Below are positions 7,087-12,813 of a stretch of DNA of 64,000 nucleotides, piece by piece. A model generated the notes under the pieces. It was not told the origin of the DNA. It did not search any database and was given only the letters and a program-made list of their open reading frames with translations. Source of the stretch: Kiloniellales bacterium (lineage in GTDB: Bacteria; Pseudomonadota; Alphaproteobacteria; Kiloniellales; JAKSDN01); the NCBI GenBank assembly GCA_028280455.1, contig JANQLT010000027.1, forward strand, positions 1 through 64,000, in the 5' to 3' direction. How positions within the stretch are numbered: the stretch's first letter is position 1; every line of letters begins with the position of its first letter. The translations under genes were made by a program, and so were the position numbers.

Positions 7087-8280
7087 TCATAGCTTGGCTA
7101 GGTAGGGCTCGAGGGCCGCCAGGCTCTGCAGGTTGTGCGCCGGGGCGAAGAGGTCGACGTGCGGCAGGGCGGCGGCCATGCCGGCGGCGGTGGGCTCGTA
7201 GTCGCGCCAGCCGATCATGGGGTTCAGCCAGACCACGCGGCGGACCCGCCGCTTGAGCCTGGCCATCTCCTCGGCGAGCCGCTCGGGCGGGCCCGTGTCG
7301 TAGCCGTCCGAGACGACGATCAGGGCTGTCCGCCGGTTGATCGCGCGGCGCGCGTGGTGCCGGTTGAAGGCGGCCAGGCTCTCGCCGATGCGCGTGCCGC
7401 CGGCCCAGCCTGAGGCCAGCAGCGACAGGCGCTCCAGGGCGCGCGCCGTGCTCTTCTCGCGCAGGGCCGGGCTGATGTGGACCAGCCGGGTGTGGAACAC
7501 GAAGGCCTCGGCCTCGCGGAAGTTGCCCAGCACGCCGCGCAGGAAGCGCAGGAAGAAGGCGCTGTAGAGCGACATGGAGCCGCTGGCGTCGAGGATCACG
7601 ACCAGGCGCAGCGGCTTCGGCCAGGGCTTCCGGTAGGCCAGCTTGAAGGGGCTGCCGCCGGTGGCGACGGAATTGTGGATCACCTTGCGCAGGTCGAGCC
7701 GCCGGCCGCGGCGGGACTTCTTCTCGCGCCGGGCCAGGCGGTAGCGCATGCGCGCGGCCAGGCGCTCGGTCAGCTCGTTGACCCGCGCCAGCTCGTCCGG
7801 GTCGTGGAGGTGGCGGACGTCGACCTGCTCGAGCGATTCGGCGGCGCTGGCCCCACCGCGCCGGCCCTCGCCGTCCTGCGCTTCCAGGCCCTCGCCGCGC
7901 TGGCTGCGCTGCGGCGGCCCGTGGGCGCCCGGCAGGTCGCCCGGCGCGCCGGCGTCGAGCCCGGCGCCGCGGCCGCCGGCCCGGCTGACCCGGGTCTCGT
8001 GCCGGGTGCCGATGCCCAGCCAGTAGAGGTCGAAGAGCTCGCCGAAGCGCCGCCACTCGCGCGGCGAGCCGCAGAGCAGCGTGCGCAGCGCGGCGCGCAG
8101 CGAGGCCGGCTCGTCGATCGGCTGGTCGCGCAGCACGCGGAAGGCGTCGGCCGACTCGCGCAGGCCGACCGGCAGGCCGTTGTCGCGCAGCAGATGCAGG
8201 AAGCCGAGCAGCCGGCGGGCCAGGTGGCCGCCGGCGCCGCCCGGGCCGCCCGGGCCAGGCATCTCGACGGCGACGTTCAT
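7087..8280 (-). CDS. coxE: CoxE-like VWA domain protein
   Basis: This is a 397-residue protein starting MNVAVEMPGPG, with a C-terminal von Willebrand A domain whose MIDAS motif reads DASGSMS and whose later motif is VSDGYDTG. The ATG overlaps the end of coxD (ATGA type). In Oligotropha, CoxE works with the AAA+ protein CoxD to introduce sulfur and copper into the Mo site of CO dehydrogenase. The linker at about residues 95-160 is Gly/Ala/Asp-rich. The gene lies between coxD and coxF, and the whole order supports the name. Confidence 0.9.
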   Translation of the reverse strand: MNVAVEMPGPGGPGGAGGHLARRLLGFLHLLRDNGLPVGLRESADAFRVLRDQPIDEPASLRAALRTLLCGSPREWRRFGELFDLYWLGIGTRHETRVSRAGGRGAGLDAGAPGDLPGAHGPPQRSQRGEGLEAQDGEGRRGGASAAESLEQVDVRHLHDPDELARVNELTERLAARMRYRLARREKKSRRGRRLDLRKVIHNSVATGGSPFKLAYRKPWPKPLRLVVILDASGSMSLYSAFFLRFLRGVLGNFREAEAFVFHTRLVHISPALREKSTARALERLSLLASGWAGGTRIGESLAAFNRHHARRAINRRTALIVVSDGYDTGPPERLAEEMARLKRRVRRVVWLNPMIGWRDYEPTAAGMAAALPHVDLFAPAHNLQSLAALEPYLAKL

Positions 8281-9185
8281 CCCGTCTTGCCGGCCAGCCG
8301 CTCGACCACCTCCCGGGTCACCGCGGCCTGGTCCTCGCGGGTCTTCAGCAGGCACAGCAAAGTCTCGTGGAGCTGCTCGGGCCGGTAGCGCAGGTCGACC
8401 ACCGCCAGGCCCATGAGCGCGGCGGCCCAGTCCAGGGTCTCGGCGACGCCGGGCACCTTCTGCAGGTCCTCCTTGCGCAGCGCCTGGACGAACTGCACGA
8501 CCTGGCGCGCCAGCGCCGCTTCGATGCCCGGCAGCCGCGCTTGCAGGATGCGCAGCTCCTTCTCCGGCTCGGGAAAGTCGACGTGGTGGTAGAGGCAGCG
8601 CCGGCGCAAGGCGTCGCTCAGCTCGCGCGTGCCGTTCGAGGTCAGGACGACGTAGGGAGTCGCCTTGGCGCCGATCGTGCCGAGCTCGGGGATCGAGATC
8701 TGGAAGTCGGACAGCACCTCCAGCAGGTAGGCCTCGAACTCCTCGTCGGCCCGGTCGATCTCGTCGATCAGCAGGACCGGTGCGCGCGCCTGGGAGATCG
8801 CCTTGAGCAGCGGCCGCTTGAGCAGGAAGCTCTCGTCGAAGACGTGACGCTCCTTCTCCTCCGCGGAACGGCCCTCGGACTCCCAGATCTTGATGGCGAG
8901 GAGCTGGCGCTGATAGTCCCACTCGTAGACCGCCGCGCTGGCATCCAGCCCCTCGTAGCACTGCAGGCGGATCAGCTCGGCGTCGAGCGCGCCGGCCAGC
9001 GCCTTGGCCACCTCGGTCTTGCCGACCCCGGCCTCGCCCTCGATCAGCAACGGCCGCTGCAATTGCTCCATCAAGCCTATGGCGGTGACGAGCTGGCCAT
9101 CGGCGATGTAGCCGGTTGTCGCGAGGGCTTGTTGCAGAGCGTCGCGGTCGGTGAGCGGGACTGGTTTGGGGTCTGTCACCCTCAC
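8277..9185 (-). CDS. coxD: MoxR-type AAA+ ATPase (CoxD)
   Basis: This MoxR-family ATPase has 302 residues, with Walker A GEAGVGKTE (about 50-58), Walker B LLIDEIDRAD and a sensor at VVLTSNGTREL. CoxD is a chaperone ATPase that partially unfolds apo-CoxL for assembly of the Mo/Cu site. No ATG is available. Two GTG codons, at 9185 and 9179, fit, preceded by GGGAGGGTGAG. Both this ribosome-binding-like stretch and the start lie inside the terminal arm of the palindromic repeat at 9176-9330, so the repeat appears to supply the translation start. The gene overlaps coxE by 4 bp. Confidence 0.9.
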   Translation of the reverse strand: MRVTDPKPVPLTDRDALQQALATTGYIADGQLVTAIGLMEQLQRPLLIEGEAGVGKTEVAKALAGALDAELIRLQCYEGLDASAAVYEWDYQRQLLAIKIWESEGRSAEEKERHVFDESFLLKRPLLKAISQARAPVLLIDEIDRADEEFEAYLLEVLSDFQISIPELGTIGAKATPYVVLTSNGTRELSDALRRRCLYHHVDFPEPEKELRILQARLPGIEAALARQVVQFVQALRKEDLQKVPGVAETLDWAAALMGLAVVDLRYRPEQLHETLLCLLKTREDQAAVTREVVERLAGKTG

Positions 9186-9330
9186 CCTCCCACGCGTCTC
9201 GCGACGCGCGGGCCCCTCCCTCTCCCCTCAAGGGAGAGGGAATGCATGCCGCGTCGACGGCGTTTTCTTCCCCTCTCCCTCGAGGGGAGAGGGAGGGGCC
9301 CATCGCGAAGCAATGGGAGGGTGAGGGTGA
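9176..9330. repeat. Palindromic repeat, left copy of the DUF559 unit (copy A)
   Basis: A 155-bp inverted-repeat structure. The ends read TCACCCTCACCCTCCCA and its complement, followed on each side by a small variable hairpin and then GGCCCCTCCCTCTCCCCTC. The centre carries GGGAGAGGG-type hairpins. Its left arm overlaps the start of coxD. Confidence 0.9.
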
Positions 9331-9361
9331 TGTGTTTCACGTTAGGTCTTCTTGTCTCACA

Positions 9362-9709
9362 ATGTCCGCCATGGCGATCAAGACTGAGCGTGCGCGACGC
9401 CTGCGCCGCGACTCGACCGATGCCGAGCAACTGCTTTGGCGCCACCTGAGAAACCGCACGGCGATCGGTGCCAAAATCCGCCGACAACACCCCGTCGGTC
9501 CCTATGTCGTCGATTTCGTCTGTCTGGAGAAGAACCTCATAATCGAGATCGATGGTGGGCAGCATGCTTCTGAGGTCGAGGCCGACAGCGCGCGCAGCGA
9601 CTGGTTGGCAAGCGAGGGCTACCATGTCCTGCGCTTCTGGAACAACGAGGTGCTGGCGCAGACCGAGGCTGTGCTGACGGCCATTCGAGACGCCCTGAAA
9701 TCGCGTTAG
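9362..9709 (+). CDS. DUF559 domain protein (restriction-endonuclease-like fold)
   Basis: This is a 115-residue protein starting MSAMAIKTERARRLRRDSTD (a second ATG lies three codons later). It carries the DUF559 signature: RLRRDSTDAEQLLWRHLRNR, then the PD-(D/E)xK-like core VVDFVCLEKNLIIEIDGGQH, then WLASEGYHVLRFWNNEV. DUF559 is related to Vsr-type mismatch endonucleases; its biological role is unsettled. The frame stays open upstream through the repeat, but the first conserved residue follows the ATG at 9362, so the longer version is a read-through of the repeat. It lies antisense to the cox operon and is tightly flanked by two repeat copies. Confidence 0.85.
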   Translation: MSAMAIKTERARRLRRDSTDAEQLLWRHLRNRTAIGAKIRRQHPVGPYVVDFVCLEKNLIIEIDGGQHASEVEADSARSDWLASEGYHVLRFWNNEVLAQTEAVLTAIRDALKSR

Positions 9710-9863
9710 CACCCTCACCCTCCCACCACTTCGTGGCGGGCCCCTCCCTCTCCCCTAAAGGGAGAGGGGAAGAGCGTCGCGTCGCCCGTGTTTCTTTCCC
9801 CTCTCCCTCGAGGGGAGAGGGAGGGGCCCGCGCGGCGTAAGCCGCGTGGGAGGGTGAGGGTGA
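9710..9863. repeat. Palindromic repeat, right copy of the DUF559 unit (copy B)
   Basis: This is the second copy of the 155-bp palindrome, with the same ends (CACCCTCACCCTCCCAC and complement), the same CCCCTCCCTCTCCCCT blocks and a different small hairpin near each end. It begins at the base after the DUF559 stop codon and ends 50 bp from the coxL stop codon. Confidence 0.9.
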
Positions 9864-9913: not shown

Positions 9914-12319
9914 TCACCCCCCGATCCCGAGCGCCTCGCATTGCTTCCAGACGCGCCAGTGGGTGTGGGGCATGGTCATGTGGGTGACGCCGAGGTGGGC
10001 GAAGGCGTCGACCACGGCGTTGGAGAAGGCCGGGACGCCGCCGACGTTGGGGCTCTCGCCGACGCCCTTGGCGCCGATCGGGTGGTGCGGGCTGGGCGTG
10101 ACGGTGAAGTCGGTCTCCCAGTGCGGCGTCTCGACGGCGGTCGGCAGGAAGTAGTCCATCAGGCTGGCGCCCTGGATGTTGCCGATCTCGTCGAACACGA
10201 GCTCCTGGCCCATGGCGATGCCGAAGGCCTCGGCGAGGCCGCCGTGGACCTGGCCGTCGATCACCATCGGGTTGATCCGCGTGCCGCAGTCGTCGAGGGC
10301 GTAGAAGCGGCGGATTTTCACCTCGCCGGTATGCGGGTCGACGTCGACCACGCAGACGTAGGCGCCGAAGGGATAGGTGAAGTTCGGCGGGTCGTAGTAG
10401 TTGACCGCTTCCAGGCCCTGCTCCAGGCCCTCGGGCAGGCTCTGGTAGGCGGCCATGGCGATCTCCTTCATGCTTGCCGCCTTCTCCGGCAGGCCCCTGA
10501 CCTTGAAGCGGTCGATCTCCCACTCGAGATCGTCCTCGCCGACCTCGAGCATGTGGGCGGCGATCTTCTTGGCCTTGGCCCTGATCTTGCGCGCGGCCTG
10601 GGCGGCCGCCGCCGCGGCCACCGGCGTCGAGCGCGAGCCGTAGGTGCCGAGCCCGTAGGGCGCGGTGTCGGTGTCGCCCTCCTCGATGGTGATGTCGTCG
10701 GAGGGGATGCCGATCTCCGTGGCGATGATCTGGGCGTAGGTCGTCTCGTGGCCCTGGCCCTGGGACTTGGTGCCGAGCCGGGCGATGGCGCTGCCCGTCG
10801 GGTGCACGCGGATCTCGCAGGAATCGAACATGCCGATGCCGAGGATGTCGCAGTTGCGCGTCGGCCCGGCGCCGACGATCTCGGTGAAGGTGGCGATGCC
10901 GATGCCCATCAGCTCGCCGCGCGCCCGCTTCTCGGCCTGCTCGCGGCGCAGGCCCTCGTAGTCGACGGCGGCCAGGGCCTTGTCGAGGGCGGTCTCGTAG
11001 TCGCCGCTGTCGTACTCCCAGCCCAGGCAGGAGCGGTAGGGGAACTGCGAGGCCTTGACGAAGTTGCGGCGGCGTATCTCCGCCTTGTCGATGTCGAGCT
11101 TCTGCGCCAGCACGTCGATCATCCGCTCGATCAGGTAGGCGGCTTCGGTGACCCGGAAGGAGCAGCGGTAGGCGACGCCGCCCGGCGCCTTGTTGGTGAA
11201 GACGCCGTCGACGCTGCAGTGCGCGACCGGGATGTCGTAGCTGCCGGTGACGATGTTGAAGAAGCCGGCCGGCCACTTGCTCGGCTGGGCGTGCGAGTTG
11301 AAGGCGCCGTGGTCGGCCAGGACGTGGCAGCGCAGCGCCGTGATCCGGCCGTCGGGGTCGGCCGCCAGCTCGCCGGTCATCAGATAGTCGCGGGCGAAGG
11401 CGGTGGTCGAGAGGTTGTCGATGCGGCTCTCGATCCACTTCACCGGCCGGCCGAGCACGATCGAGCCGACCGTGGCGCAGACGTAGCCGGGATAGGCGCC
11501 GACCTTGTTGCCGAAGCCGCCGCCGACGTCCGGCGAGACCACGCGGATGTTGTGTTCCGCCAGGCCGGAGATCAGCGAGACCACCGTGCGGATGACATGC
11601 GGCGCCTGGAAGGTGCCGTAGAGCGTCAGCTCGCCGCGCACCTTGTCCATCGAGGCGACACAGCCGCAGGGCTCGAGCGGGCAGGGATGGCAGCGCGGGT
11701 AGAAGATCTCCTCCTTGACGGTCACCGCCGCGCCGGCGAAGGCCTGGTCCGTCGCGTCCTTGTCGCCGCAGTCCCAGGTGAAGATGTGGTTCGGGTGCCT
11801 GCGCGCGCCCTGGCCCACCTCGCTCTTGTCCTGGGCGTCCTCGCGCAGCACCGGCGCGTCCGGCAGCAGCGCCTTGGTCGGATCGACCAGGGCCGGCAGG
11901 TCCTCGTATTCGACCTCGACCGCCTCGATGCCGTCGGCCACCGCGTAGCGGTCCTCGCCGATGACGAAGGCGACCTCCTGGTTCTGGAAGTGCACCTTCT
12001 CGTCGGCCAGCACCGCCTGGGCGTCGCCGGCCAGGGTCGGCATCCAGTGCAGGTTCAGCGGTCTCAAGTCATCGGCCGTGAGCACGGCGATGACGCCGGG
12101 GATCCTGGTCGCCGGCTCCGTGTTGATCGACTTGATGCGGGCGTGGGCATGGGGGCTGCGCACGAAGTTGCCGACCACCGTGTCGGGCAGCTTGATGTCG
12201 TCGACGTAGTTGCCCTTGCCTTGGATGAAGCGCGCGTCCTCCTTGCGCTTGCGCGCCGTGCCGATGCCGCCGAGGGTGGCTTCCCGCTCTTCCAGGGTCA
12301 TCTCTTTCACGTCGGTCAT
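9914..12319 (-). CDS. coxL: Aerobic CO dehydrogenase large subunit, form I (CoxL)
   Basis: This molybdenum-copper catalytic subunit has 801 residues, close to the 809 of Oligotropha CoxL. It oxidises CO with water to CO2 and two electrons. The diagnostic form I active-site loop VAYRCSFR is present at residues 382-389, so the copper-ligand cysteine is Cys386. Other cofactor motifs are intact: GTKSQGQGHETTYAQI, and PIGAKGVGES with the catalytic glutamate at about 755. Form II enzymes have AYRGAGR instead. The ATG is chosen because it overlaps the coxS stop (TAATG) and gives [13 protein letters not shown]; the upstream open frame has no similarity. It is cytoplasmic or membrane-associated in the CoxLMS heterotrimer. 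Confidence 0.97.
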   Translation of the reverse strand: MTDVKEMTLEEREATLGGIGTARKRKEDARFIQGKGNYVDDIKLPDTVVGNFVRSPHAHARIKSINTEPATRIPGVIAVLTADDLRPLNLHWMPTLAGDAQAVLADEKVHFQNQEVAFVIGEDRYAVADGIEAVEVEYEDLPALVDPTKALLPDAPVLREDAQDKSEVGQGARRHPNHIFTWDCGDKDATDQAFAGAAVTVKEEIFYPRCHPCPLEPCGCVASMDKVRGELTLYGTFQAPHVIRTVVSLISGLAEHNIRVVSPDVGGGFGNKVGAYPGYVCATVGSIVLGRPVKWIESRIDNLSTTAFARDYLMTGELAADPDGRITALRCHVLADHGAFNSHAQPSKWPAGFFNIVTGSYDIPVAHCSVDGVFTNKAPGGVAYRCSFRVTEAAYLIERMIDVLAQKLDIDKAEIRRRNFVKASQFPYRSCLGWEYDSGDYETALDKALAAVDYEGLRREQAEKRARGELMGIGIATFTEIVGAGPTRNCDILGIGMFDSCEIRVHPTGSAIARLGTKSQGQGHETTYAQIIATEIGIPSDDITIEEGDTDTAPYGLGTYGSRSTPVAAAAAAQAARKIRAKAKKIAAHMLEVGEDDLEWEIDRFKVRGLPEKAASMKEIAMAAYQSLPEGLEQGLEAVNYYDPPNFTYPFGAYVCVVDVDPHTGEVKIRRFYALDDCGTRINPMVIDGQVHGGLAEAFGIAMGQELVFDEIGNIQGASLMDYFLPTAVETPHWETDFTVTPSPHHPIGAKGVGESPNVGGVPAFSNAVVDAFAHLGVTHMTMPHTHWRVWKQCEALGIGG

Positions 12320-12813
12320 TACTCCGCGGCCTCCTTCTGGGCCTGCAGCTTCTCGGCGGCGTAGCGCACCGCCTTGACGATGTTCTGATAGCCGGTGCAG
12401 CGGCAGAGGTTGCCCGAGAGGCCCCAGCGGATCTGCTCTTCGCTCGGGTTCGGGGTCTCCTGCAGCAGGCGATAGGCGCGGGTGATCATGCCCGGCGTGC
12501 AGTAGCCGCACTGCAGGCCGTGCTCTTGCATGAAGCCTTCCTGGATCACCGAGAGCGTGCCGTCGGCGCCGGCCATGCCCTCGACGGTCAGCACCTCGGC
12601 GCCCTGGGCCTGCACGGCGAAGAGGGTGCAGCTCTTCACCGACTTGCCGTCGATGTCGACGGTGCAGGCGCCGCAGTGCGAGGTCTCGCAGCCGACATGG
12701 GGCCCGGTGATGCCGAGCTGGTCGCGCAGGAAGTGGATCAGCAGGGTCCGCGGCTCGGCCAGCGCTTCGACGGCCCGGCCGTTGACGGTCATGGATACGG
12801 CGGTTTTGGCCAT
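12319..12813 (-). CDS. coxS: CO dehydrogenase small subunit, two [2Fe-2S] clusters (CoxS)
   Basis: This is a 164-residue iron-sulfur subunit. The plant-type cluster is bound by Cys42, Cys47, Cys50 and Cys62 ([10 protein letters not shown]), and the second cluster by Cys102, Cys105, Cys137 and Cys139 (QCGYC and LCRC). It passes electrons from the Mo/Cu site of CoxL to the FAD in CoxM. A strong GGGGGAGG ribosome site precedes its ATG. It lies 17 bp after coxM and overlaps coxL by one base (TAATG), so the three enzyme genes are tightly coupled in the order M-S-L. Confidence 0.97.

Follow-up and report, generated by a model that had tools for sequence, protein, structure and literature searches.

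The two palindromic repeats and the DUF559 gene between them that lie in the window (the stretch of 64,000 nucleotides of a Kiloniellales genome that was analysed here) form a unit that has moved in the past. Repeat and gene co-occur, they keep a fixed geometry, repeat type matches enzyme type, and both the module and the dispersed doublets of the repeat are present at some orthologous sites and absent from others. We consider it likely, therefore, that this segment is a small mobile module, that DUF559 is the enzyme dedicated to a superfamily of REP-like repeats, and that the dispersed units are non-autonomous derivatives. The fold of the protein, the position of its gene and the type matching suggest further that the repeat is cut by DUF559 and owes its movement to that enzyme.

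Palindromes around the DUF559 gene of the window

A sequence-only reading of this DNA had described two near-identical 155-bp palindromes around a DUF559 gene. Repeat searches and folding bear out the palindromes and their placement (Table 1), and the length is right for copy A, while copy B is one base pair shorter. The near-identity is confined to the 17-nt ends, which are identical, and to the hairpin core; overall, the copies are 83% identical in the inverted register and 81% in the direct register. Copy A, whose arms span about 9176-9241 and 9266-9330, folds as single-stranded DNA at a predicted -71.6 kcal/mol (z -13.2), and 0 of 200 shuffled sequences were as stable; the hairpin cores of A and B reach z values of -7.8 and -9.2, respectively. 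Also as first read, copy B starts directly after the DUF559 stop codon, 31 bp separate the end of copy A from the ATG, and the unit is antisense to the cox operon (coxM-S-L-D). No Rfam model matched the hairpins above its gathering threshold, with low-scoring eukaryotic models as the only matches, and the hairpins are thereby ruled out as a known RNA family.

Table 1. Features of the DUF559 unit and its neighbours, in window coordinates.
Feature	Coordinates	Length	Strand	Description
Copy A	9176..9330	155 bp		Palindromic inverted doublet of two repeat units; repeat search, DNA fold, dispersed family
Copy B	9710..9863	154 bp		Palindromic inverted doublet; begins one base past the DUF559 stop
DUF559 gene	9362..9709	115 aa	+	ATG at 9362 or 9371; stop TAG at 9707-9709
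coxD-like AAA ATPase gene	8277..9185		-	AAA_5 at 1e-12 and ORF list; downstream of the insertion
coxL	9914..12511		-	CO dehydrogenase large subunit family; ORF and tblastn to relatives; upstream side of the insertion

For coxD, the longest ORF begins at a GTG inside copy A (within 9176-9185), and the insertion may therefore have changed the coxD start.

The palindrome family of copies A and B is dispersed over about 14 places in its own 5.94-Mb genome, which carries two DUF559 genes. The other gene, at the carA-carB junction of contig C25, has a matching inverted palindrome pair at both ends, of a different type (CCTCCCCCCTTGTGGGGGAGG). Since this second gene is likewise flanked, the association of gene and repeat was tested at scale.

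Matching repeats on both sides of DUF559 genes

We assembled 177 DUF559 loci, mainly of Pseudomonadota, from the same order, from GTDB genomes of many phyla, from a phylum sample and from further paralogues, and took a score of 24 or more as a flank match. Matching repeats were present on both sides of the gene at 114 of the 177 loci (64%) as compared to 8.6% of cross-locus pairs, and they were found in each sample (22/29 loci of the order, 46/78 GTDB loci, 16/29 loci of the phylum sample). Among the 72 loci that offered at least ten in-locus controls, the left-right match beat every control in 49, where 1.7 were expected. Measured over 138 loci, repeat density was highest next to DUF559, with 4.15 per kb in the first 100 bp; it then fell to 1.03 per kb between 100 and 200 bp, to 0.41 between 200 and 300 bp and to 0.02-0.06 farther out, a drop of more than 60-fold past 300 bp.

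The repeats are also oriented with respect to the gene. Their tails point to it in 107 of 114 cases and the opposite way in 7 (p 4e-24), and the canonical layout runs from a CCCTCTCCC-loop-GGGAGAGGG hairpin through TTGGGGTGAGGG to the gene and then to the reverse complement of the same elements, with the right repeat containing the DUF559 stop codon in 41 of the 114 loci with matching flanks. The in-locus controls, the cross-locus controls and the orientation rule together rule out chance or plain terminator hairpins. Two properties of this collection count against a mobile module: the best flank match is direct rather than inverted in 42 of the 114 pairs, and about one third of the DUF559 genes have no matching flanks. 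The DUF559 genes on Azospirillum brasilense plasmids (L161, L163, L164) belong to the latter and form a negative group. In N. gonorrhoeae, the species whose protein was solved as 3hrl, a DUF559 gene (L162) is flanked on either side by long direct repeats that match each other.

Repeat copies in genomes with and without DUF559

The repeats carry tails of the CCCTCACCC or CCCCCACCC types, with no GTAG tag. Hairpins of the CCCTCACCC type are abundant intergenic repeats of many Pseudomonadota, and we know of no account of how they spread. Genomes were searched for the repeat with the pattern CCCNCNCCCNNNCCCTCNCCC and scored as positive at four or more matches. In the order, positives made up 21 of the 24 relatives that have a strong DUF559 match and 4 of the 34 that do not (p 8e-9), with up to 98 matches in a DUF559-bearing relative; in the phylum sample the counts were 20/38 and 3/42 (p 1e-5). 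Genomes are not independent, and therefore the genus-level figure is safer: positive genera made up 9 of the 11 with DUF559 and 1 of the 15 without (p 1.6e-4). Within a single genus, G099 has DUF559 and 54 matches and G161 has neither. Three DUF559-bearing relatives without the pattern and four DUF559-free relatives with it are exceptions in the order and count against the association. Together with the flank controls, these counts nevertheless place the co-occurrence of repeat and gene, which the sequence-only reading had proposed as a check, far beyond chance.

Dispersed copies are often inverted doublets with their tails outward, a REPIN-like form, and the start-to-start spacing within the doublets is constant at about 76 bp (G012, G019, G031). 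In G004, some doublets (L265, L267, L281) lie inside a longer palindromic element that ends in TAGTACC...GGTACTA.

Repeat type also follows DUF559 type. Protein similarity correlated with left-repeat similarity (Mantel r 0.25, p 0.002; 0.23 without close pairs), a modest correlation for which shared ancestry or base composition may partly account. All matches in G012 (74/74) and G019 (28/28) were of type B, as were the flanks of their DUF559 genes; no match was of type B in G003 (0/16) and G042 (0/10), where the flanks of the best-match DUF559 genes (L030, L041) are not type B. Within genus g2, G004, whose DUF559 gene (L037) has type-B flanks, has 43 type-B matches, G001, which carries two DUF559 genes, has 3 and G006 has 8.

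Presence and absence at orthologous sites

By tblastn, coxL and coxD are adjacent in relatives. The junction was read in ten relatives with both genes matched and was empty in eight of them (G001, G004, G006, G038, G039, G041, G042 and G044), which rules out an always-present ancestral DUF559 gene at this position and agrees with the earlier view that the unit has split the two genes. In the other two, G007 and G021 of another family, the junction holds a DUF559 gene in the opposite orientation with type-B flanks, whose protein shares about 48% identity with that of the window and 57-59% with that of C25. Because DUF559 subtype, orientation and repeat type all differ, two independent insertions are the simplest reading. 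Association at chance level and an ancestral gene, the two outcomes that had been named in advance as contrary to a minimal mobile unit, were thus both not seen, and that reading is supported by the co-occurrence and by presence and absence at orthologous sites.

The same holds elsewhere. Between glcD and glcE, the unit is present in G004 and absent in G000, G001, G003 and G006, where the site is occupied by a short spacer (G000), a CACAGAG-type palindrome (G001, G006) or a solo CCCTCACCC repeat (G003). At five further g2 sites with doublets in G004, the doublet is absent from G001 at four and replaced by another repeat type at one; G006 has two of the five in common with G004. At the glcD-glcE junctions (L195, L196, L197) and at the L272 site, different palindromic repeat families are found in related genomes, which gives such junctions the look of common landing sites.

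A search for target duplication, also proposed beforehand, found no general direct repeat outside the hairpins and no exact element end; this counts against the mobile module. DUF559 genes lie between carA and carB in three genomes of different families (L024, L025, L038). At these three insertions only, the first 42-45 bp of carB are duplicated beyond the unit. The duplicates differ from genome to genome and are nearly identical inside each, a pattern that points to more than one insertion at this site, accompanied by a long duplication. In genus g22, DUF559 occupies the same site in seven of eight genomes; therefore, vertical inheritance of some units also occurs, a further point against the module as a mobile one.

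The DUF559 protein and its predicted fold

The window protein matches PF04480 at 138 bits (1e-40; curated cut-off 20.6), and DUF559/MTES_1575 is its only Pfam match. Numbered from the residue encoded at 9374, positions T15, E18, W22, Q38, D47, E58, D60, G61, G62, H64, D71, R74, G82, R87 and W89 are invariant in 46 aligned DUF559 proteins, and E18, D47, E58, D60 and H64 are putative active-site residues. Foldseek searches with an AF2 model (pLDDT 86.6) returned N. gonorrhoeae 3hrl and I-Bth0305I (3r3p; probability 1.00, TM about 0.7-0.8, E 1e-4 to 5e-4) and, more weakly, Vsr (1vsr, 1cw0). The model thus points to the PD-(D/E)XK/Vsr fold class rather than to HUH Y1 (IS200/IS605-like), in line with the Vsr-like fold that had been proposed from the letters. 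A profile search agrees on 3hrl and 3r3p; toxin B-subunit chains in the same search were dismissed as chance matches (E about 0.6-1). Besides 3hrl, I-Bth0305I is the nearest characterised relative by fold and by sequence (similarity at E 3.5e-4).

I-Bth0305I is an EDxHD homing endonuclease that shares with DUF559 its fold, its active-site region and detectable sequence similarity, and DUF559 might accordingly be a free-standing homing endonuclease that cuts at or near repeat loci. The repeats would then be landing pads and not cargo, and the gene would be copied by double-strand-break repair with the flanking repeats as homology arms. Such a process could account for the usual position of the gene between repeats and for the use of the same junctions (coxL-coxD, carA-carB) in different genomes. 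It is nonetheless unlikely: empty sites have no such repeat (coxL-coxD in G001, G004 and G006; glcD-glcE in G000), and homing predicts neither the amplification of the repeat with DUF559 and its near absence without DUF559 nor tails that face the gene on both sides. In the PDB, I-Bth0305I is named as a mobile intron protein, whereas DUF559 is a free-standing single-domain gene between palindromic repeats at many unrelated sites. The DUF559 unit is intergenic, and its empty sites lack the repeat.

Comparison with REP/RAYT and Vsr

REP sequences are short intergenic palindromes that carry an unpaired tag and occur singly or as inverted doublets, and the RAYT/TnpA_REP gene is bracketed by repeats whose type tracks the enzyme type (PMC3733652, PMC8266576). 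The DUF559 gene resembles a REPtron in being bracketed by its own repeats, and the dispersed inverted doublets resemble REPINs in their constant length and in being polymorphic at orthologous sites. However, RAYT is an HUH tyrosine transposase and DUF559 is a predicted PD-(D/E)XK/Vsr-fold nuclease, for which, unlike RAYT, we know of no strand-transfer activity; moreover, the tag linked to DUF559 is CCCTCACCC-like rather than GTAG. The module would therefore work like a REPtron while lacking two of its defining traits, the HUH enzyme and the GTAG tag, and DUF559 is best read as analogous but unrelated to RAYT. In Alphaproteobacteria, CGTC-tagged REPs, which differ in tag from the DUF559-linked repeats, have been reported without a dedicated transposase (PMC3733652). 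The text of that paper contains no CCCTC or GGGTGAGGG motif, does not name DUF559 and has the word 'endonuclease' once.

Given that GTAG-tagged REP repeats are linked to RAYT (PMC3733652, PMC8266576), one could suppose that the repeats are moved by a transposase encoded at another locus, RAYT or otherwise, and that DUF559 is a passenger trapped between two of them. We think this improbable, since one gene family over many taxa, with fixed geometry and matched type, is not expected of a random passenger, and shifted positions within the same loci were seldom bracketed by matching repeats.

Vsr belongs to the same fold family with weak similarity. The NCBIfam vsr model matches 13 of the 46 DUF559 proteins and did not match the window protein at E 0.001. 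Unlike Vsr, the window DUF559 is linked to repeats, and no cytosine methylase adjoins it, its neighbours being cox genes. A defence-gene identity was rejected, as PADLOC yielded just a weak DpdF match (E 0.0024). For pairs with measurable dS, dN/dS was about 0.08-0.21 (one near-identical pair was uninformative), which indicates that DUF559 is under purifying selection; fragmented copies occur in several genomes. The DUF559-domain protein VsrA of Caulobacter has been linked to a cytosine methylase and to the SOS response (PMC12907096). That DUF559 is a domesticated host nuclease, which tolerates or processes repeat hairpins or acts in Vsr-like repair, with the repeats as regulatory elements or terminators, would agree with the purifying selection, the vertical retention in g22 and the VsrA case, but it is very improbable. 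DUF559 is patchily distributed, occurs in several copies per genome, has inserted independently and includes degraded copies, all of which suit a mobile gene better, and a housekeeping nuclease need not sit between its own substrates.

A parallel nuclease-repeat pairing

GxxExxY genes (PDDEXK_3, PF13366) of the same order (L250-L261) are bracketed by repeats in about 9 of 12 cases, beyond in-locus controls, and one of them lies in the genome of the window (L257, G000:C129:4784-5125). The flanking copies are mostly inverted and belong to another superfamily (AACCACAGAGGCACAGAG, CACCACGAAGACACGAAG, CACGGATGAACACGGATG). GxxExxY is a parallel nuclease-repeat pairing.

Proposed mechanism and implications

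The mobile module that we favour would consist of two repeat units and the DUF559 nuclease gene that they enclose, with the unpaired GGGTGAGGG-like tails of the repeats toward the gene. Each unit of the superfamily would comprise a tail, CCCTCACCC, and a hairpin, CCCTCTCCC-loop-GGGAGAGGG, in type variants; single units, as well as inverted doublets about 97 bp long, would be non-autonomous and dependent on DUF559. The enzyme may recognise the tail-hairpin into which repeats of its own type fold and cut or nick there; host replication or repair would then copy either the repeat alone or the gene together with its two repeats to other intergenic sites. The sequence-only reading had likewise offered DUF559 as the agent that nicks or moves the repeat, and we infer the same.

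We also put forward, tentatively and with somewhat less than even confidence, that a very widespread REP-like superfamily has as its mobility enzyme a lone Vsr/EDxHD-fold nuclease, which has no help beyond host replication and repair and no homology to RAYT. Several pairings of this kind may exist, because GxxExxY genes are bracketed by a CACAGAG-like superfamily. Within the open-access literature that our search covered, we found no link between DUF559 and repeats, and nothing relevant on REPIN/RAYT with a nuclease or on GxxExxY. As the CGTC case illustrates, non-GTAG repeats are not all explained by RAYT (PMC3733652). If the proposal is true, it would provide a testable mechanism for the spread of CCCTCACCC-type hairpins, a function for a large family of 'unknown function' for which a structure has been solved (3hrl), and a second, convergent route by which a gene and a minimal hairpin form a mobile unit.
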